In this document: piece after piece, positions 23,221 through 33,223 of the stretch
Layout of the letters: each line of letters opens with the position of its first letter
How positions within the stretch are numbered: the stretch's first letter is position 1
The notes under the pieces: model-generated
Seen by the model: the letters and a program-made list of their open reading frames with translations, nothing else
What the model was told of the DNA's origin: nothing
The model's database searches: none
NCBI RefSeq assembly: GCF_028583545.1
Contig: NZ_CP087107.1
Location: forward strand, 394,501-458,500
Direction: 5' to 3'
DNA: 64,000 nucleotides
Source of the DNA: Methylobacterium sp. NMS14P
GTDB lineage: Bacteria; Pseudomonadota; Alphaproteobacteria; Rhizobiales; Beijerinckiaceae
Made by a program: the position numbers and the translations under genes

Positions 23221-23922
23221 ATGCCTCGGCCGACGAGCCTTGTGGATACGGTCTACCGCGCGATCGTCGGCGGTATCGCGGACGGCACGTACGCGCCGAA
23301 CGACCGTCTGCCGAGCGAGCACGACCTGGCGGGACAATTCGGGGTCTCGCGTCCCGTCGTGCGCTCCGCCCTCGACCGGCTGAGACGCGAGGGCGCCATC
23401 GTGTCCCGCCGCGGCGCGGGAAGCTTCGTCCGGGCGGCCGAGGTGAAGCAGAAGCTCGGCTTCGCCCCCGTCGAGAGCATCGCCGACATCCAGCGCTGCT
23501 ACGAGTTCCGCCTGACCATCGAGCCCGATGCGGCCTTCCACGCCGCCCTGCGGCGGGACGGTCCGGCGCTGCGGGCTATCGAGGCCGCCCTGGACCTGCT
23601 CGCGACGGCGACGCGCCAGGAGCAGCACCGGGAGGATGCCGACTTCGCGTTCCATCACGCGATCGCGGAGGCGTCCAACAACCACTATTACGCGGCCTCG
23701 CTCCAGGCGCTGCGCTCGCACATCGCCGTCGGCATGAAGATCCACGGCCTCTCGCTGCTCGGGCCGAATTCCGGCCTCAGGGGCGTGTTCGACGAGCACG
23801 AGGCGATCTTCCGCGCGCTCCGCGATGGCGAGGCGGAGGCCGCGCGCAGCACGATGGCCGCGCATATACGGACCTCGCGGGACCGCCTGTTCGAGGGGCG
23901 GCTGCTCGATCTGTCGCTGTAA
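23221..23922 (+). CDS. GntR-family (FadR subfamily) regulator of the sugar-acid operon
   Basis: A 233-residue GntR protein with an N-terminal winged helix (LPSEHDLAGQFGVSRPVVRSALDRL) and an all-helical FCD ligand domain, including DADFAFHHAIAEASNNHYY with the usual metal/ligand histidines. The start at 23221 follows GGAGG by seven bases; longer in-frame versions exist but lack family similarity. Divergent from the FAD oxidase gene, it is the likely repressor of the catabolic operon, released by a sugar-acid intermediate. Confidence 0.85.
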   Translation: MPRPTSLVDTVYRAIVGGIADGTYAPNDRLPSEHDLAGQFGVSRPVVRSALDRLRREGAIVSRRGAGSFVRAAEVKQKLGFAPVESIADIQRCYEFRLTIEPDAAFHAALRRDGPALRAIEAALDLLATATRQEQHREDADFAFHHAIAEASNNHYYAASLQALRSHIAVGMKIHGLSLLGPNSGLRGVFDEHEAIFRALRDGEAEAARSTMAAHIRTSRDRLFEGRLLDLSL

Positions 23923-24145
23923 CGCCAGCCGCTTCAGCGCGGCGGGGCAGGGCGGTCACAGGACGGGGTCGCGCGGCGGAGGTGTTCGGATCCGGCGGGA
24001 CGGGCACGCGCGTCGGCACGGGCAGGCCCGCTGGCGGCGAGAGCGACGTGGACGCGACCCGCGCCGCACGATCACCTGGGCATTGACGGGTCGCCTCGTG
24101 CCAATAGGCCCGGCTTGCAAGCAAAAGCGGCTAATCGGCCAGAAA

Positions 24146-24160
24146 TTAACCAAAGCTTAA
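24146..24160. promoter_or_regulatory. CtrA-type box 1 (TTAACC-N5-TTAA)
   Basis: TTAACCAAAGCTTAA matches the full CtrA consensus TTAA-N7-TTAA, including the favoured CC after the first half-site. It lies ~87 bases before the rpfF ATG. Chance occurrence is unlikely in DNA of this GC content. Confidence 0.6.
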
Positions 24161-24217
24161 TTATCTGAGGAGGGCCGGCTCCGGCCGCCTAGCTCCGCGG
24201 CGCCGGCCGCGATACGG

Positions 24218-24232
24218 TTAAGGACCACTTAA
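24218..24232. promoter_or_regulatory. CtrA-type box 2 (TTAA-N7-TTAA)
   Basis: TTAAGGACCACTTAA is a second exact TTAA-N7-TTAA element, centred 22 bases before the rpfF ATG and 72 bases (about seven helical turns) from box 1. It also forms the dyad GTTAAG/CTTAAC. Its place near the translation start suggests an effect on initiation. Confidence 0.55.
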
Positions 24233-24246
24233 CGGATCCAAATGAA

Positions 24247-25260
24247 ATGGCGTCTATTACAGGTCTCGCCAAGGATTTGGTGCCTTACCCCGGTCCTGTG
24301 CCGCTGCGGCGGCGGCCGGCGCCCGCGCGGCGACCGAGCGAGTCGCGGATCGCTCCGGCCGTATCGCCCGCCGATCCCGGCATCTCCGAGCTCGCTCAGA
24401 TCGAAGTCGATTTCGAAGCCGGCAGCAACACCCTGTGGGCCTTCATGCGCCCGCACGGGCGCCCGTGCCAGAATCCCGAGATGCTGGCCGACTTCAGCCG
24501 GCTGCAGGATGACATCGAGCGCGTCTTCGGCAACGGCGGTCCTGACCTGAACTATTTTGTCTTCGGATCACGATTTCCCGGCGTGTTCAGTCTCGGCGGT
24601 GATCTGAACCTGTTCGCGAGCAAGATCCGTGCGGGCGACGAGGCCGCGCTGGTCGGTTACGGCAACGCGTGCGTCGATGTTCTTCACCGCAACATGAACG
24701 GTCTGAATCTGCCGATCATCACGATCGGCCTCGTTCAGGGCGACGCGCTGGGCGGGGGGTTCGAGGGCCTGCTCTCGTTCGATGTGATCATCGCCGAGAA
24801 GGGCACCAAGTTCGGCTTTCCGGAGATACTCTTCGGGCTCTTTCCCGGTATGGGAGCGTACAGCTTCCTCGCCCGCCGTCTGGGGACCATCAAGGCTCAG
24901 GAGATGATTCTCGATGGAAGAACCTACACCGCCGAAGAGATGCACGAACTGGGGATCGTTCACATCCTCGCCGAGCGTGGCCAGGGCGAGGCCGCCGTGC
25001 GCGCCTACATCGCCGGCAACCGTCGGCGGCGCAACGGGCAGCAGGCGATCTATCAGGCCGCCCGCGAGGTCAATCGCATATCGTTGGAGGAACTGAGAAA
25101 GATCGTTGCGGTCTGGGCGGCCGCCGCGATGAACCTCACGGACAGGGATCTGAGCATCATGGAGCGGCTTGTTCTGGCCCAGGACAAGCTCAGGGGAAAA
25201 GCCCAGGCCGCCCAGGCCCGCACGGTGCCGGCACGGGAGCTGTCGGCGTCAACTCGCTAG
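24247..25260 (+). CDS. rpfF: RpfF-like DSF (cis-2-unsaturated fatty acid) signal synthase
   Basis: A 337-residue crotonase-fold protein. The segment from PIITIGLVQGDALGGGFEG to GFPEILFGLFPGMGAYSFLA is the diagnostic RpfF region. Glu173 and Glu193 match the two catalytic glutamates of Xanthomonas RpfF, with the same 20-residue spacing. RpfF both dehydrates 3-hydroxyacyl-ACP and releases the cis-2-enoic acid, a diffusible quorum signal. An N-terminal extension of ~45 residues, Pro/Arg-rich, is longer than in typical RpfF (~290 residues). The gene ends tail-to-tail with a GGDEF-EAL gene, overlapping it by 12 bases. Two CtrA boxes upstream suggest cell-cycle control. An ordinary enoyl-CoA hydratase is unlikely given the motif. 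Confidence 0.85.
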   Translation: MASITGLAKDLVPYPGPVPLRRRPAPARRPSESRIAPAVSPADPGISELAQIEVDFEAGSNTLWAFMRPHGRPCQNPEMLADFSRLQDDIERVFGNGGPDLNYFVFGSRFPGVFSLGGDLNLFASKIRAGDEAALVGYGNACVDVLHRNMNGLNLPIITIGLVQGDALGGGFEGLLSFDVIIAEKGTKFGFPEILFGLFPGMGAYSFLARRLGTIKAQEMILDGRTYTAEEMHELGIVHILAERGQGEAAVRAYIAGNRRRRNGQQAIYQAAREVNRISLEELRKIVAVWAAAAMNLTDRDLSIMERLVLAQDKLRGKAQAAQARTVPARELSASTR

Positions 25261-27579
25261 CTTCGTCAGGGGCTCCGCGGCCGCGAGCATGGTCCGGATC
25301 TGTGGCGCGGCGACCGGACGGCTGAAGACGTAGCCCTGGATCAGATCACAGCCCTCCGCGCGGAGGATGGAGAGTTGCGTCTCGGTCTCGACGCCCTCGA
25401 CGACGATGGCCATCCCGATGCTTCTTCCCATGCCGACGATCGCCCGGATGATCGCGGTCGACTCGGTCTTCCTGTCCAGATCCGACACGAACGACCGGTC
25501 GATCTTCAACTTGTCGAAGGCGAAATTTCTCAGGGAGCTCAGGGACGAGTAGCCCGTTCCGAAGTCGTCGATCGACAGGCGGATCCCGAGCTGGCGGAGC
25601 TTGTTGATGGTCTCGACGATCTTGTGCGTCGCGCCCAGCGTCACGCTCTCCGTGATCTCGAGCTCCAGGCGATGCGCCGGGAGGCCGGAGCGGTTCAGCG
25701 CGCCGATGACGTGGAAGGCCAGCTGCGGATCGCCGAACTGACGCGGCGACATGTTGACCGCGACGCTCACGGTCGACGGCCACTTCCGGGCCTCGCGGCA
25801 CGCTTCGTTCAGGACCCAGTTGCCGAGCTGGACGATGAGCCCCGTGTCCTCGGCCACCGGGATGAAGTCCGACGGCGGGATGTATCCGGAGACGGGGTGC
25901 TGCCACCGAAGCAAGGCCTCGCAGCTCACGATCGCACCGGTGCTCGAGTCGACGATCGGCTGATAGTGAAGCTCCAGCTCCCCGTTGGTCAGAGCGGCCC
26001 GGAGATCCGACTCGAGGGCGTGCCGCGCGCGCGTGGCCGCCTCCATCTCGTGCTGGAAGATCTTGAACCCGCTCCTGCCGGCCCCCTTGATGGCGTAGAG
26101 GGCTATGTCGGCGCATTTCAGCAATCTGTCCTCGTCGTTGGCGTGGAACGGGGCGATCGCGATGCCGATCGAGGCGCCGACCGTGACGTGATTGCCGTCG
26201 ATATCGAAAGGCCGCTCCAGTTCTTGCAGGACGCGCTGCGCGAGATCCTCCGCGACGGCCGGCGACGTGACGGATTGCTGGACGATGACGAACTCATCGC
26301 CGCCGAGGCGGGCGACCGATCCGGATAGCGCCCCGATCCCGCGCAGCCGGTCCGCGACCATCTGCAGCAATCTGTCTCCGGCCGGGTGCCCCATCGTGTC
26401 GTTGATGACTTTGAAGTGGTCGAGGTCGAGCAGGTGGACCGCGAAATCTCCCTTGCTGCTGGCGCTGGCCTTCAGCGCCTGGGAGACCTTGGCCTTGAAG
26501 CTGCTTCGATTCAGCAGGCCGGTCAGATCGTCGTAACTCGCCATCTGCTGAATGCGGGCCTCGTTCCGACGCCGCTCGGTGATGTCCTCGAAGATGATGA
26601 CGTAGCCCTTCTCGGCGGTCCGCCGCTGCATCAAGGACACCACGCGATCGTCGGGGAGGATCAAGACCAGATTCCCTGATCTCAACGCATTCGACGCCGC
26701 CGAGAACGTCGAGAGTGTCGAGCCGCGTCCCGCTGTTCTCTCATCGACGATGGCGCGGCTCAATTTGTACAGCGATTTGGCCGTGGAGTTGGTGTGGATC
26801 CGGCTCGAGGGAATGCCCGATATCGAGAGGAACTGGTCGTTCCAGACCTGGAGGCGGCCGCGCGCGTCGAACATGCACAGCCCGTGCGACATGTTCCGCA
26901 ACGCGATGTCGAAGAGATTGGCCTGGGCCTGGAATTTCTCGGCGAGCGCCTCCTTCTCCCGCGTCGTGACCAGGGCCGACACGATGATCTCGCGCGTGCT
27001 GAGCGTGATGTCGATCATGCCATAGGCGAACAGGAGCGACAGGATGCCGAGCGAGGCCCGCTCGCCGTCGCCGGACACCAGCAGACCCGCCGAGAGCGGC
27101 ATCGCCGACAGGAGAACCTGCGCGATGGCCAGCAGGGGGCGGCCCGCGTTGCGGCCCGAGATGCCTGCGGCGTAACCGATGGTGAACGTGGGGGTGATGA
27201 CCTGGAGCGCGAGATTGGACGACCGGGTCGTGATGAGAAACGACAGGATGCCGAGCGACGCGGCGTAGGCGAACGCTCCGATGGAGAAGTATTTCTCCCA
27301 GATTTCGTACCGATCGTACTTCTCCGGCCCCTTCGTCAGGTAAACCCGAGCGAGTAGGATGCGGGTGAGCCCGATCAGGCCGACCGCGAACGCGGTCAGG
27401 GTGATTGCCCGATCATCGGACCAGAACGCCGCGGCCGTGGCGACGATCGTGCCGGACGCGGCGCCGACCGCGAGAGATGCGAAGGGTTGATACAGCCCGT
27501 CGACGAGCGAACGCTTCACGTCGCGCGAGAGCAGGGCGTCTTCAGCCAGTGCGGCCCGCAGTTTGGAATACAGTCCCAA
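25249..27579 (-). CDS. Membrane PAS-GGDEF-EAL c-di-GMP enzyme, possible DSF receptor
   Basis: A 776-residue protein. Residues ~33-196 hold about six membrane helices, ~210-335 a PAS domain (IALRNMSHGLCMFDARGRLQ) and ~345-505 a GGDEF domain with intact GGDEF (426-430). An EAL domain follows from ~515, with intact EAL (554-556), EITES and DDFGTGYSS (671-679). Both cyclase and phosphodiesterase activities are therefore possible; an RXXD inhibitory site is not seen before GGDEF. The PAS-GGDEF-EAL order next to rpfF recalls RpfR, the cytosolic DSF receptor of Burkholderia, but here the N-terminus is membranous. A TTAACC half-site (27691-27696, minus strand) lies ~110 bases upstream. Confidence 0.9.
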   Translation of the reverse strand: MGLYSKLRAALAEDALLSRDVKRSLVDGLYQPFASLAVGAASGTIVATAAAFWSDDRAITLTAFAVGLIGLTRILLARVYLTKGPEKYDRYEIWEKYFSIGAFAYAASLGILSFLITTRSSNLALQVITPTFTIGYAAGISGRNAGRPLLAIAQVLLSAMPLSAGLLVSGDGERASLGILSLLFAYGMIDITLSTREIIVSALVTTREKEALAEKFQAQANLFDIALRNMSHGLCMFDARGRLQVWNDQFLSISGIPSSRIHTNSTAKSLYKLSRAIVDERTAGRGSTLSTFSAASNALRSGNLVLILPDDRVVSLMQRRTAEKGYVIIFEDITERRRNEARIQQMASYDDLTGLLNRSSFKAKVSQALKASASSKGDFAVHLLDLDHFKVINDTMGHPAGDRLLQMVADRLRGIGALSGSVARLGGDEFVIVQQSVTSPAVAEDLAQRVLQELERPFDIDGNHVTVGASIGIAIAPFHANDEDRLLKCADIALYAIKGAGRSGFKIFQHEMEAATRARHALESDLRAALTNGELELHYQPIVDSSTGAIVSCEALLRWQHPVSGYIPPSDFIPVAEDTGLIVQLGNWVLNEACREARKWPSTVSVAVNMSPRQFGDPQLAFHVIGALNRSGLPAHRLELEITESVTLGATHKIVETINKLRQLGIRLSIDDFGTGYSSLSSLRNFAFDKLKIDRSFVSDLDRKTESTAIIRAIVGMGRSIGMAIVVEGVETETQLSILRAEGCDLIQGYVFSRPVAAPQIRTMLAAAEPLTKLAS

Positions 27580-28372
27580 AGCGGCGTCTCGCTACTTCGC
27601 TCTCGTTGCGGCTGTCGTCATTGAGGCAGTTCAATCCGCGTCTATCGCCGCAGATTAGCGGCCTCGAATTTCAAAGATATTGAAAAGCTTGGTTAACGGC
27701 CCTCATTGATCGTATCTTCGTGTCGAATATTTGCGCCATCTCCGCGAAGATTTCGTGATTATGGCCATTTGCGGAGCCGAATATCGATGCGGTTCCGGAC
27801 AGTCCGGAACAGGTTCTGAGGCGGCTGACACGGCGGGTTCATACATGTCCCGTCGGGCACCGCGCCGCTGACAACCCATATCCGGAGGCGTCATCTCGCC
27901 CGGCCGTATTCGATCGGAAGACGTCGACCTGCTCGTCAGATGTCGGGGCGATCGCGCGCTCTTGCCCCGGTCCCACGGCGGCTCCGCCCGTCCCGTTTCG
28001 CGCTCGACGTCTTCATGCCGTCCTGACGATGTCGCCGCGTCAGGGACTCTCACGCTCCCGGGCGCGGCTCGCGCTTCTGACGCGATGCCCGGCGCGCGTG
28101 ACCGCCGGGTTGCGGGCGAACAGCCTCGGACGGGTGGCCCCCGAGTGGCAGCCCCAGCGGCGCGATGCTCGCGCGGCCGGCAGCGTCCGGGATCAGCCCG
28201 GGCGAGCGCGGGCTCGCAAGAGCCAGGAAGCCGAGGATGAGCCCCGGCACCAGCTCGACGAAGCCGGGCCGGCTCGAGGCCGATCTCGGAGGGGCCTTTG
28301 CGGTCGCTCCCGCTGCCGGCACCGCGCCCCCCGCGCCGGGAAGGACGGTCACCGTCCGGCGCGGCAGGCCGC
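27580..28372. other. Long intergenic region, no convincing gene
   Basis: About 790 bases. The part 27600-27800 is A+T-rich and should hold the promoter of the GGDEF-EAL gene, including AAGCTTGGTTAA (27685-27696). From 27850 on it is GC-rich, with several overlapping frames (27703-28053 minus, 28050-28604 minus) that lack motifs or ribosome sites. I saw no RNA-like fold that I could defend. Confidence 0.4.
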
Positions 28373-28724: not shown

Positions 28725-29942
28725 TCAGCCCGGCGCGCCCGGGGCGGGCCCGTCGGCCTGCGGCGCCCGCGGTTCGGCCGCGGCACCCGCGTCCGCCGAC
28801 CGGATCTCGACCTTGAGGTCCTGCCGCATGTCCTGGAGATGGTCGGTGATCACCCGCTCGCCGGCCTTGAGCCCGGCCAGGATCGCGGTCTCCTCGCCGA
28901 AGCTGTCGCCCGTGGTCACGGGCTTCTGGCGGACCACGCCCTGATCGTCCACCACGTAGACGATCTGCTGGGCGAGCCGGGCCGACAGCGCGACCGTGGG
29001 GACGAGGAGCTTCTCCTCGGTGCCGGTCGTGACCCGGGCGCGGACGAACTGACCGGGCAGGAAGCGCTCGTCGGTGTTCGGCAGCAGCGCGCGCACGAGG
29101 CGCCGGGCGGTGCGGGGGTCGAACCGGTTGTCGAGCTGGTAGACCCTGGCGTCGCGCACGGGCTTGCCGGCCTCGTCCAGCACCTCCACGGTCACCGGGC
29201 CGGTCTGCATCGCCTCGCGCAAGGCCTCGGAATCCTCGGAGGAGAGCGCCATCTGCACGTCGATCGGGTCGAGCTGCACCACCGTGACCAGCTCCGTCTG
29301 GTTCTCGATGACGAGGTCGCCGGGGTTGACGATCGACAGGCTCGCCCGCCCGTCGAACGGCGCGCTGACCACCGCGTAGTCGAGGTTGAGGTTCTGCCGC
29401 GCGATCGCGGCCTCGGCCCCCTGGACCTGGGCGGCGGTCGCGGCCGCGTTCGACTGGAGCTGCTGGAGGCGCTGCTCCGACGCGTAGCCCTTGTCGGCCA
29501 GCGTGTCGGTCCGGCTCACCTCGGCCTGCGCGAACTGGAGCTGCGCCTTGGCCTGCGCCTCCTGGGCCTGGGCCTGGGCGAGTGCCACCTGGAACGGGCG
29601 CGGATCGATCCGGAACAGCACCTGCCCCTTCTTCACGTGGCTCCCGGGCTCGAAGGGGCGCTCGGTGACGTCGCCGGTCACCCGGGCCTGCAGGGCCGCG
29701 TCCTGCTGCGCGATGATCGTGCCCGTGTAGGTGAAGCTGATCGGCACGGTCCGGGTCCGCGCCGCCGTCACCGTGACGGCGATCGGCGGCTCGGCCTCCG
29801 CGGTCTCGGCCGGTTGGTCCGACCAGGGCAGCGCGGCGATCAGCGCCGACGGCTCCGGCCGGCCCATCGCGAGCCAGCCGCCCGCCGCCAGGACCAGCGC
29901 GGCGCCACATCCGAGGAGTCCAGTCCGAAGCCCCGCCCGCAC
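28725..29942 (-). CDS. RND efflux periplasmic adaptor (membrane fusion protein)
   Basis: A 405-residue HlyD/AcrA-type adaptor. It has an N-terminal membrane anchor (about 7-27), a biotinyl-lipoyl-like half (VTGDVTERPFEPGSHVKKGQ), a coiled-coil hairpin (~125-180, ALAQAQAQEAQAKAQLQFAQ) and the returning lipoyl and beta-barrel segments (VSAPFDGRASLSIVNPGDLV). The GTG start at 29942 is chosen for the GGGAGGAG eight bases upstream; an ATG at 30038 would run into the shared promoter region. It is divergent from the RND pump gene, an uncommon layout, and no TolC-like gene is nearby. Confidence 0.85.
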   Translation of the reverse strand: MRAGLRTGLLGCGAALVLAAGGWLAMGRPEPSALIAALPWSDQPAETAEAEPPIAVTVTAARTRTVPISFTYTGTIIAQQDAALQARVTGDVTERPFEPGSHVKKGQVLFRIDPRPFQVALAQAQAQEAQAKAQLQFAQAEVSRTDTLADKGYASEQRLQQLQSNAAATAAQVQGAEAAIARQNLNLDYAVVSAPFDGRASLSIVNPGDLVIENQTELVTVVQLDPIDVQMALSSEDSEALREAMQTGPVTVEVLDEAGKPVRDARVYQLDNRFDPRTARRLVRALLPNTDERFLPGQFVRARVTTGTEEKLLVPTVALSARLAQQIVYVVDDQGVVRQKPVTTGDSFGEETAILAGLKAGERVITDHLQDMRQDLKVEIRSADAGAAAEPRAPQADGPAPGAPG

Positions 29943-30058
29943 GCTGACTGCTCCTCCCGCTGCGGCGCGCCCGCGCCGAGCCCGACGGGGAACACGCCAA
30001 ACGCGTTCGCGTTGCACGCCCGCGGTCCTCGCGGCCACCGATTACCGTCGAGGTCCGA
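29943..30058. promoter_or_regulatory. Shared divergent promoter region of the RND adaptor and pump
   Basis: 116 bases separate the GTG of the adaptor (minus) from the TTG of the pump (plus). Both promoters must lie here. I could not identify a confident operator. Confidence 0.4.
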
Positions 30059-33000
30059 TTGTTCGCCCGCTTCGTCGACCGGCCGGTCCTGGCGGCCGTC
30101 ATCTCGGTTCTGATCACCCTGATCGGTGCGGTCGCCGGCCTGACCCTGCCGATCGCCCAGTTCCCCGAGATCGCGCCGCCGATCATCAACATCCAGGCGA
30201 CCTATCCCGGCGCCAGCGCGCAGCAGGCCTACGACGCGGTCACGACGCCCCTGGAGCAGGAGATCAACGGCGCCCAGCACCTGCTCTACATCGCCTCGAC
30301 CAGCAACACCGACGGGAGCGTCAATCTCGACGCCACCTTCGAGATCGGCTCCGACCTCGATGCCGCCGCCGCCGAGGTCCTGACCCGCGCCAACCGGGCC
30401 GAGGCGAAGCTGCCGGCCTCGGTGCGCGCGCAGGGGCTGGAGATCCAGAAGAGCTCCCGCCAGCGGCTCGGCAACATCGTGCTCTACGCCGATCCGGGCG
30501 CGCCCTACGACGAGCTGTTCCTGGCCAACTGGGCCGAGACCCAGGTGATCAAGCCGCTCCGCCGGGTCGACGGCATGGGCCGGATCCAGAACTTCTCCCA
30601 GAAGCGCTACGCCATGCGCCTGTGGCTCGACCCGGTGAAGATGGAGGCGCTGGCGATCAGCCCGGACGCGGTGATCCGCGCGGTGAGCCAGCAGAACGAG
30701 CAGATCACCACCGGATCCCTCGGCAAGCCGCCGACCGACGGCAAGCCCACTGCCTTCGAGCTGCAGGTCGTCACGCAGGGCCGGCTCAGCCAGCCCCAGG
30801 AATTCGCCAACATCCTGCTGCGGGCCAATCCCGACGGCTCCGTGGTGCGGGTGCGCGACGTGGCGCGGGTGGAGCTGGGTTCGGAGCAGTACGGCGTGCG
30901 CTCCAGCTTCGACGGCAAACCTTCGGCGACCCTCGGCCTCTACCAGACGCCGGGCGCCAACGCCGTCCGCGTCATGGACGGGGTGAAGGCCACGATGGAG
31001 GAGATCGCGCGGCGGTTCCCGCCGGGCCTCAAGTACAAGATCGCCCTCGACCGCACCGAGTTCGTCCGCGAGGCGATCCGCGAGGTGGTGCACACCCTGT
31101 TCGAGGCGCTGATCCTCGTCGTGGTGGTCACCTACCTGTTCCTGCAGAACTGGCGGGCGACGCTGATCCCCTCGATCGCCGTGCCGGTGGCGCTGGTCGG
31201 GACGTTCGGGCCGATGGCGCTGCTCGGCTTCTCGTTCAACACCCTGAGCCTGCTCGGCCTGGTCCTGGCGGTGGGCCTCGTGGTCGACGACGCGATCATC
31301 GTGGTCGAGAACACCGAGCGCCTCATGGACGAGGGGATGGAGCCGCGCCCGGCCGCCCGGGAGGCGGTGAACGAGGTCGCCGGCCCGGTGATCGCCACCA
31401 CCCTGGTGCTGGCCGCCCTGTTCGTGCCGGTGGCCTTCATCCCGGGCCTGACCGGCCAGCTCTACAACCAGTTCGCCCTGACCATCGCGATCTCGGTGAT
31501 GATCTCGGCCGTGGTCTCGCTGACCCTGACGCCGGCGCTCTGCGGCCTGATCCTGAAGCACCGGCCGGAGGGTGCGCAGGCGGGCCAGAGCCGGTGGAGG
31601 GCGCCGCTGCGCTGGTTCAACCGGGCGCTGGAGCGGGCCGCGGGCCTCCTCACCGCGATGATCGGCCGGCTCAGCCGCCACCTCGCCCTCGTCGGCCTCG
31701 CCTTCGCGGCCTTCGCGGCGCTCACCGTGCTCCTCGTGATGCAGCGCCCGACCGGCTTCGTCCCGAACGAGGACCAGGGCTACTTCTTCGCCGACGTCGC
31801 CCTGCCCAAGGGCGCCTCGGTGGCGCGCACCGACCGGATGGTCGAGCGGCTCGGCGGGAGCCTGCGGGACATGCCGGAGGTCGATCACACGATCGGCGTC
31901 GTCGGCCGCAGCATCCTCGCCGACGCGGTGGCGCCGTTCTACGGGTTCCAGATCCCGGTCCTGAAGCCCTGGGGCGAGCGGTCGGCCTCGGCCGACGCCA
32001 TCATCGCCCGCGTGCAGAAGGAATTCCGGCACGATCCGGACGGGAAGGTGCGGGTGGTCAACCCGTCGCCGCTGCCGGGGCTCGGCACCCGCAGCGGCCT
32101 GACGCTCGAGATCCAGGACCGCAGCGGTGCCGGCGGCATCAAGCTCGCCGAGGCGGCCCAGCGCTTCATCGACGAGATGGAGAAGAGCCCCAACGTCGCC
32201 CAGGCGCTGCCGACGACGAGCTACGGGGTGCCGCAGATCCGCCTGGAGATCGACCGGGCCAAGGCCGAGCAGCTCGGCGTGCCCCTCCAGAACCTGTTCG
32301 ACGCGCTCGGGACCTACGTCGGGTCGAGCTTCGTCAACCTCTTCAACCGCTTCGGCTTCGTCTACCAGGTCTACGTGCAGAGCGAGGCCACGGGCCGGCG
32401 CACAATCCAGGATCTGCAGGCGCTGCCGGTCCTCAACAGCCGGGGCGAGCCCGTGCGGATCGGCTCCCTGGTGCGGGCGGAATTCACCACCGGCCCCACC
32501 GCGGTCCTGTCCTACAACACCTACCCGGCCATCGAGGTGGCGATCGAGGTGGCCCCGACCGCGAGTTCCGGCACGGTGCTCAAGGAGGTCGAGGCGCTGG
32601 CCAAGCGCCGGCTGCCCTCGGACTACGCCGTGGAATGGACCGACGTCGCCTACCAGGAGAAGGTCGCGGGCGGCTACGCGCCGCTGATCTTCGGCCTCGG
32701 CGTGCTGATGATCTTCCTGCTGCTCGCCGGGCAGTACGAGTCGCTGCGCCTGCCCTTCGTGATCCTGCTGGCGACGCCGATCGCGATCTTCGGCGCGGTC
32801 GGCTTCCTGGCCGTGCGCGGGCTCGAGCTCGACATCTTCGGCCAGATCGGGCTGCTGCTGCTCGTCGGTCTGGCCGCCAAGAACTCGATCCTGCTCGTGT
32901 CCTTCGCGGAGGACTTGCGCCGGCAGGGCGAGGACGTGCTGAAGGCGGCGCAGGACGCGGCGCGCCTGCGCATGCGCCCGATCCTCATGACCTCCTTCGC

Positions 33001-33223
33001 GTTCATCACCGGCTCGATCCCGCTCGCCATCGCGAGCGGCGCCGGGGCGCATGCCCGCGTCTCGATGGGGACGGTGGTGATCGGCGGCCTCGTCGTCGCG
33101 ACCTTCATCACCCTGTTCATCACGCCGACCTTCTACGTCGCCTTCGAGCGGCTGCTCGGGCGGGGCGACGCGGCCGCCAGGGCGCAGTCCGGGCCGGACG
33201 GCGCGGCGCAGCCGGCCGAGTAG
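30059..33223 (+). CDS. RND multidrug efflux pump (HAE1 family)
   Basis: A 1054-residue inner-membrane RND transporter of normal length. It has twelve membrane helices in the usual 1+5+1+5 pattern with two large periplasmic loops. ARFVDRPVLAAVISVLITLI starts the first helix, GLVVDDAIIVVENTERLMDE contains the proton-relay aspartates of helix 4, and KNSILLVSFAEDL lies in helix 10. It should exchange protons for hydrophobic or amphiphilic drugs. The start codon is TTG, preceded by a purine-rich GAGG; no ATG or GTG nearby fits the family's N-terminus. Confidence 0.9.
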   Translation: MFARFVDRPVLAAVISVLITLIGAVAGLTLPIAQFPEIAPPIINIQATYPGASAQQAYDAVTTPLEQEINGAQHLLYIASTSNTDGSVNLDATFEIGSDLDAAAAEVLTRANRAEAKLPASVRAQGLEIQKSSRQRLGNIVLYADPGAPYDELFLANWAETQVIKPLRRVDGMGRIQNFSQKRYAMRLWLDPVKMEALAISPDAVIRAVSQQNEQITTGSLGKPPTDGKPTAFELQVVTQGRLSQPQEFANILLRANPDGSVVRVRDVARVELGSEQYGVRSSFDGKPSATLGLYQTPGANAVRVMDGVKATMEEIARRFPPGLKYKIALDRTEFVREAIREVVHTLFEALILVVVVTYLFLQNWRATLIPSIAVPVALVGTFGPMALLGFSFNTLSLLGLVLAVGLVVDDAIIVVENTERLMDEGMEPRPAAREAVNEVAGPVIATTLVLAALFVPVAFIPGLTGQLYNQFALTIAISVMISAVVSLTLTPALCGLILKHRPEGAQAGQSRWRAPLRWFNRALERAAGLLTAMIGRLSRHLALVGLAFAAFAALTVLLVMQRPTGFVPNEDQGYFFADVALPKGASVARTDRMVERLGGSLRDMPEVDHTIGVVGRSILADAVAPFYGFQIPVLKPWGERSASADAIIARVQKEFRHDPDGKVRVVNPSPLPGLGTRSGLTLEIQDRSGAGGIKLAEAAQRFIDEMEKSPNVAQALPTTSYGVPQIRLEIDRAKAEQLGVPLQNLFDALGTYVGSSFVNLFNRFGFVYQVYVQSEATGRRTIQDLQALPVLNSRGEPVRIGSLVRAEFTTGPTAVLSYNTYPAIEVAIEVAPTASSGTVLKEVEALAKRRLPSDYAVEWTDVAYQEKVAGGYAPLIFGLGVLMIFLLLAGQYESLRLPFVILLATPIAIFGAVGFLAVRGLELDIFGQIGLLLLVGLAAKNSILLVSFAEDLRRQGEDVLKAAQDAARLRMRPILMTSFAFITGSIPLAIASGAGAHARVSMGTVVIGGLVVATFITLFITPTFYVAFERLLGRGDAAARAQSGPDGAAQPAE

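Follow-up and report, generated by a model that had tools for sequence, protein, structure and literature searches.

What does a crotonase gene related to RpfF do when it lies tail-to-tail with the gene of a putative membrane receptor that carries PAS, GGDEF and EAL domains? The question is raised by a locus of Methylobacterium sp. NMS14P, in the 64,000-nucleotide stretch of DNA analysed here (the window; G000:C2:394501-458500, on a contig of 542,519 bases). RpfF-type enzymes make the fatty-acid signals known as diffusible signal factors (DSF), and among DSF receptors the membrane kinase RpfC is, together with RpfR, the best described. We consider it likely that the two genes form a two-gene DSF-type module for cell-to-cell signalling, in which an RpfF-like synthase is paired with a six-helix membrane GGDEF-EAL receptor, and our best reading of the sequences is that the locus would represent a further DSF receptor layout, unlike both RpfC and RpfR. 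A first-pass annotation of this DNA had read the locus as a DSF system, and that reading is supported by the grouping of the synthase with RpfF and by conserved pairing of the two genes; the convergent arrangement, its 12-base overlap and the PAS, GGDEF and EAL domains that it reported are likewise confirmed. The two genes are laid out as follows.

24247..25260, + strand: predicted RpfF-like DSF synthase, crotonase fold, NCBIfam PRK08788 family; 337 amino acids, ATG start
24763-24765, + strand: codon of synthase Glu173
24823-24825, + strand: codon of synthase Glu193
25249..27579, - strand: putative membrane receptor, six transmembrane helices followed by PAS, GGDEF and EAL; 776 amino acids, TTG start
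25249..25260, no strand: 12 bases in which the convergent genes overlap

Kinship of the synthase

The Pfam match of the synthase is to the general ECH_1 family of the crotonase fold. Among PDB chains compared by sequence, the best four are all RpfF-type (E values 3.5e-55 to 3.4e-50), and the fifth-ranked, a hydratase, follows at 1.7e-15. Two of the four, 6dgn and 3m6m, are named RpfF, and 5fus and 7zq7 bear enoyl-CoA hydratase names; the printed alignments show these last two to be near-identical to 6dgn and close to 3m6m. We take 5fus to be a Burkholderia protein and 3m6m to be from Xanthomonas. Against NCBIfam, the synthase reaches 391.7 bits with NF006452, passing the cut-off of 177, and 203 bits with the RpfF equivalog NF053515, below the cut-off of 550. 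As controls, the 269-residue part of 5fus scored 186 with NF053515 and 400 with NF006452, and the 247-residue part of 3m6m scored 526 and 397, respectively; since these RpfF control parts also fall below 550, NF053515 does not define the RpfF family. It looks to be a model of the xanthomonad type specifically; RpfF is covered by NF006452 as well.

For a synthase tree, 82 rows were gathered and 76 used, leaving out the incomplete L103 and the near-copies L077, L079, L056, L065 and 6dgn; six hydratases were included, namely 3rsi and five of the 11 weaker matches that the own genome contains. In this quick tree, in which the hydratase branches are long, the RpfF side including the window protein is split from the six hydratases with a Shimodaira-Hasegawa-like approximate likelihood ratio (SH-aLRT) of 100. 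The protein does not group with the hydratases compared; grouping with them would have told against the first-pass annotation. The window synthase lies inside a group of 25 rows (SH-aLRT 99), 17 of them labelled as receptor-linked, with P0006 counted only because its contig is as long as that of a receptor hit, and L052 because of a contig end.

Glu173 and Glu193, 20 residues apart, had been put forward as matching the catalytic pair of RpfF with identical spacing. They do align with that pair: in the alignment to 3m6m, and with a 16-residue offset in chain numbering that we infer, E173, E193, G118 and G170 match RpfF Glu141, Glu161, Gly86 and Gly138, the first two being the catalytic residues of RpfF and the glycines accompanying them (PMC9040811). 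The pair was nevertheless rejected as proof of RpfF, because four of the six aligned hydratases (the own-genome L002, L004 and L006, and 3rsi) also have both residues intact at the same spacing and it is thus not diagnostic; each of the other two lacks one Glu. By its family kinship, the synthase probably makes a fatty-acid quorum-sensing signal. Public names are divided: several relatives are called 'crotonase/enoyl-CoA hydratase family protein', and the Joint Genome Institute (JGI) names read 'DSF synthase' for many of 120 listed. Named database relatives of the synthase or receptor include M. soli, 'M. radiotolerans' and one 'Methylorubrum extorquens'. The enzyme label 'DSF synthase' is already present in public annotation, and it is the receptor and the pairing that appear new. 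Papers describing such a receptor together with an RpfF from Alphaproteobacteria were not found in a literature search, which is weak evidence given the search's incomplete journal coverage.

Pairing of the two genes

Adjacency of synthase and receptor is conserved, and it is so across three gene orders; loss of adjacency would have told against the first-pass annotation. In a sample of 111 genomes of the genus, with an enzyme cut-off of E 1e-30 or better, seven hold the synthase and five of these have the receptor directly adjoining (66-100% identity for the enzyme and 59-100% for the receptor, over nearly full length). The other two, G117 and G205, hold a synthase relative of 35-36% identity without a receptor neighbour; at L075, a locus of this type, an EAL gene lies about 6 kb from the synthase relative. 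By eye, the synthase relative at L075:7037-8026 and L076:6714-7703 in these two genomes is convergent with an Obg-like GTPase gene. A further genome, G268, has a receptor relative of 40% identity over residues 22-774 and no enzyme at E 1e-30. In the order, 28 of 199 sampled genomes have the synthase, and its neighbours were classed in stretches of mostly about 15 kb. A signalling gene adjoins 24 of the 28 synthase genes: the six-helix GGDEF-EAL receptor is adjacent in 12, and another 12 are RpfC-like loci, 10 of them with a hybrid kinase and a REC-PAS-GGDEF-EAL protein and two with a kinase and a REC-PAS-kinase. In one genome (G010) another open reading frame (ORF) separates the RpfC-like kinase from the synthase, the two loci with a REC-PAS-kinase have it and the RpfC-like kinase divergent from the synthase, and in G181 enzyme and receptor each lie a few hundred bases from the ends of different contigs, like a broken pair. 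A scan of contigs with named records found the receptor adjacent at seven of eight loci, from M. soli (probably the same locus as G244 of the genus count), a Hyphomicrobiales metagenome-assembled genome (MAG) and five Sphingobium or Sphingomonadales; at the eighth, from a Thiobacillus MAG, rpfF is accompanied by an RpfC-like kinase and by a REC protein whose C-terminus is HD-GYP-like. The gene order is convergent in Methylobacterium and Sphingobium, five genomes of one family (f29) have the receptor upstream in tandem, and in G186 it lies downstream of the synthase with a 4-base overlap.

How often would such a neighbour arise by chance? The own genome has 51 first-look GGDEF-EAL candidates, so that, by rough estimate, at most a few percent of random genes would lie beside one. 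An ordinary enoyl-CoA hydratase of catabolism, lying by chance beside a gene of cyclic diguanosine monophosphate (c-di-GMP) turnover, would account for the crotonase fold, for the general Glu pair and for several of the public names; given the split from hydratases in the tree, the signalling gene beside most synthase genes of the order and the two-gene block that genomes have in common (see below), we regard it as very improbable. As to the history of the pairing, the free quick tree, which needs four changes, does not keep the receptor-linked synthases together. Several independent recruitments of the receptor were considered on that ground and set aside: a constraint to a single clade is not rejected (approximately unbiased test, p-AU 0.76) and gives a better score, for a group that was chosen after viewing the tree and that also took in the unlinked L085 and seven database relatives without a known neighbourhood. 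The pairing may have arisen once and then been reshuffled.

The sister loci bear on what the synthases make. At L059:2487-7144, where domains were scanned, the synthase has beside it a hybrid kinase of the RpfC type and a REC-PAS-GGDEF-EAL protein, and nine loci share this layout by similarity (L054, L055, L056, L060, L061, L062, L066, L070 and L071); at such loci GGDEF-EAL takes the place of the HD-GYP output of RpfG. A REC-PAS-histidine kinase without a c-di-GMP domain was seen by eye beside the synthase at L073:2558-6738 and L074:8419-12587, and by scanning at eight more loci (L083, L084, L086, L087, L092, L094, L096 and L100); we read these loci of other Alphaproteobacteria as DSF-type loci with a different output. 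In Xanthomonas RpfC, Arg15, Asp17, Ser18, Glu19 and Gln22 are reported to be essential for DSF sensing (PMC5391125). Among RpfC-like kinases beside related synthases, a set that includes some near-copies and the Thiobacillus MAG, 22 of 29 have R.D[ST]E and 16 of 29 have R.D[ST]E..Q. Since many of the sister kinases keep these residues, synthases of this clade probably make DSF-type signals. This bears on another explanation, in which the crotonase makes some other acyl product, such as a precursor of modified membrane lipids, and the receptor senses the state of the membrane lipids and no secreted signal. Mammalian adenylyl cyclase membrane domains do respond to ordinary fatty acids (PMC11606603), and no third gene is common to the conserved block, both of which such an explanation would accommodate; that related synthases adjoin RpfC-like kinases, of which many carry the DSF-sensing motif, and that the closest solved relatives are of RpfF type speaks for a signal instead, and makes this explanation unlikely.

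Several observations weigh against the proposed signalling pair. The distribution within the genus is patchy, with the seven genomes out of 111; three of the 28 order genomes (G170, G142 and G117) have neither an RpfC-like kinase nor a GGDEF-EAL gene close by; and in four genomes of the class sample that hold the enzyme (G449, G319, G385 and G451) the membrane domain does have a match, a weak one in G319, G385 and G451, but it lies far from the enzyme gene or on another contig. In the class, 24 of 385 sampled genomes hold 25 synthase genes, and among the 23 genes counted after leaving out G000 and G117 the six-helix receptor stands beside none; an RpfC-like kinase adjoins 17 and a REC-PAS-kinase alone adjoins one, three have none of the searched genes and two lie at a contig end. 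The first-pass annotation had proposed a distinct alphaproteobacterial variant, which holds as regards the receptor; the synthase family is not rare in Alphaproteobacteria, and RpfC-like kinases adjoin it in both the order and the class sample.

The two genes also appear to have moved together as one unit with sharp edges, which is delimited as follows.

23928..28073, no strand: 4.15-kb block of both genes and their upstream regions (DNA identity to G239, G+C content)

Over 23928-28073 the window is 94.2% identical in DNA to G239, and over 24075-28064 it is 90.6% identical to G293, which also matches some 150 bases close outside that range at 78%. Outside these stretches, no similarity of either genome to the window was found at E 1e-10; their flanks have much in common with each other and differ from those of the window. 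The G+C content of the block is 64.6%, versus 71.6-75.1% in adjacent stretches, and in G244 and G218 similarity is limited to both genes and their close surroundings. The receptor's upstream region, 27580-28073, belongs to the block; within it a 116-residue ORF (27703-28053, - strand) is conserved as protein at 71% and 55%, below the 94% and 91% of block DNA, and is probably not a gene. Just outside the block, at 28725-33223, divergent genes recognised by eye resemble the adaptor and pump of a resistance-nodulation-division (RND) efflux system; among the 73 other loci searched, the pump has a single weak match of 25%, in L067. No Rfam family matches 23800-28200 at gathering scores, and 23900-27900 holds one promoter-like match (shuffles: mean 0.4, standard deviation 0.6) and one terminator-like match (shuffles: mean 2.0). 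A RepC gene lies on the same contig (G000:C2:340623-341123), so the replicon of about 0.54 Mb that carries the gene pair is probably a RepABC megaplasmid or chromid.

The receptor and its membrane domain

The receptor matches PAS_7, GGDEF and EAL in Pfam, and its parts are placed as follows.

26914..27579, - strand: residues 1-222, N-terminal and membrane region; predicted helices, without a Pfam family
27136..27156, - strand: residues 142-148, GRNAGRP, between helices 4 and 5 (alignment)
26560..26901, - strand: residues 227-340, PAS_7 domain (Pfam)
26074..26541, - strand: residues 347-502, GGDEF domain (Pfam), GGDEF motif intact
25315..26007, - strand: residues 525-755, EAL domain (Pfam)

An AlphaFold2 model of the whole receptor from 36 sequences has a mean predicted local distance difference test score (pLDDT) of 84.4 and a predicted template modelling score (pTM) of 0.49, so that the arrangement of its domains is unsure. 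From the N-terminus on, the model has six long helices, then a long helix reaching residue 221, a PAS fold, GGDEF and EAL. We read the six long helices, predicted at 33-54, 57-82, 91-119, 123-143, 148-168 and 172 to about 195, as membrane helices; two short helices precede them, and the sixth runs on to residue 221 in the model. Counts of charged residues in 19 sequences agree with both ends of the domain lying inside, and modelled alone the domain reaches a pLDDT of 92.5. Among the 36 aligned relatives, EAL residues Glu554, Asn609, Glu641, Asp671 and Asp672 are invariant, Glu728 and Gln748 are kept in at least 90%, and the GGDEF motif is invariant or nearly so. We take these EAL residues to be positions known for EAL catalysis.

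Which part would sense the signal? The membrane-domain set has 32 members out of 74 loci, 24 of them beside or paired with a synthase. The motif RNA[G/A]R after helix 4 is present in all 24 synthase-linked receptors (22 by pattern, L042 and L053 in the alignment) and in two of the eight members without a linked synthase (L105 and L114). In five Sphingobium-type receptors adjoining a synthase, GGDEF follows the membrane domain with no PAS between them, as found by a Pfam scan of one and an alignment of all five, and eight of 30 database relatives of the receptor list only EAL and GGDEF. Because the membrane domain is the input-side feature common to the synthase-linked receptors and PAS is absent in some, it is likely to be the sensor rather than PAS. 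It might still be that the system is a DSF system whose fatty acid is bound by PAS, as happens in the RpfR of Burkholderia, the helices being a mere anchor; PAS_7 is present in the window receptor, and domain order and convergent gene order are those of rpfF-rpfR (PMC6361424). This we hold to be quite unlikely, as the receptor PAS finds no RpfR chain among PDB sequences up to E 10, the five Sphingobium-type receptors do without one, and the membrane domain is conserved across 19 aligned sequences with its fixed motif.

For the membrane domain, the best Pfam match of the 19 members has E 0.012, each family being matched by a single member; in PDB by sequence, the best is CDP-archaeol synthase at E 0.015; both are taken as chance. 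Foldseek with the membrane-domain model returned nothing under E 0.001. The predicted fold is nearest to ImcA and adenylyl cyclase 9, below the tool's trust level for helical bundles, and this likeness is suggestive only. Kinship to the RpfC input domain was considered and rejected: hhalign gave probabilities of 0.4% (23 versus 13 sequences) and 1.9% (32 versus 29), and three control splits within the two families gave 100%. The RpfC motif R.D[ST]E occurs in none of the 32 six-helix domains. With neither kinship nor motif, the six-helix domain would therefore sense signals of this class by separate means. To the points against a signalling pair we add two here: DSF binding by this domain is suggested by association with the synthase, with no kinship to the RpfC input, and eight receptor relatives (L105, L106, L107, L108, L110, L112, L113 and L114) have no synthase in the fetched stretch, which for L113 is a 3.7-kb contig that barely tests it. 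These relatives are possibly listeners to the signals of others or sensors of other lipids.

Comparison with known systems

We set the predicted module beside the systems already described. First, the RpfF-RpfR systems of Burkholderia and Cronobacter also have an RpfF-family synthase convergent with a PAS-GGDEF-EAL protein (PMC6361424). In RpfR an RpfF-interacting domain stands at the N-terminus and the PAS binds the Burkholderia diffusible signal factor (BDSF), whereas here six predicted membrane helices are N-terminal and the PAS matches PAS_7 and is absent from some relatives. As the first-pass annotation had it, predicted helices stand where RpfR has its RpfF-interacting domain, but the receptor is not simply RpfR with helices swapped in, given its PAS without an RpfR match and its PAS-less relatives. 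Second, the RpfF-RpfC-RpfG system of Xanthomonas likewise couples a membrane receptor to c-di-GMP beside an RpfF-family synthase (PMC5391125, PMC13220807). RpfC is a five-helix hybrid kinase acting via RpfG, whereas here membrane input and GGDEF-EAL output would be in one protein, and the RpfC make-up (five-helix R.D[ST]E input, histidine kinase, REC and Hpt) is not matched by the receptor. Third, Pseudomonas PA0575, MorA and PA0861 share the GGDEF-EAL half, PA0575 and MorA with 42-44% identity over about 425 columns. Finally, six-helix domains are found in nucleotide cyclases and in the quorum sensor CqsS (PMC4821796, PMC11606603), to which the domain here has no PDB sequence match; other DSF receptors have been reported as well, among them a dCACHE chemoreceptor and an accessory system of Burkholderia.

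In the two-gene module that we favour, the RpfF-like enzyme would make a free cis-2-unsaturated fatty acid from 3-hydroxyacyl-ACP, as its family suggests. The fatty acid would partition into the membrane and bind the six-helix domain of the neighbouring receptor, and the change would pass down the long last helix, through PAS where present, to the GGDEF-EAL pair. The level of c-di-GMP would then be altered, by analogy with RpfR most likely via raised EAL phosphodiesterase activity. More tentatively, and with some doubt, the six-helix domain may be a receptor dedicated to fatty acids and alike in kind to the membrane domains that adenylyl and diguanylate cyclases carry, with the synthase of its ligand encoded adjacent.

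Such a module would bring membrane input and c-di-GMP output together in one protein in Alphaproteobacteria. With the synthase of the likely ligand adjacent and with PAS-less relatives, it would offer a small, clean system for fatty-acid sensing by a six-helix domain, and how six-helix membrane domains sense is a question for adenylyl cyclases as well (PMC4821796, PMC11606603). If the domain is indeed a fatty-acid receptor of the cyclase type, these 'orphan' membrane receptors would gain a natural, genetically linked ligand.

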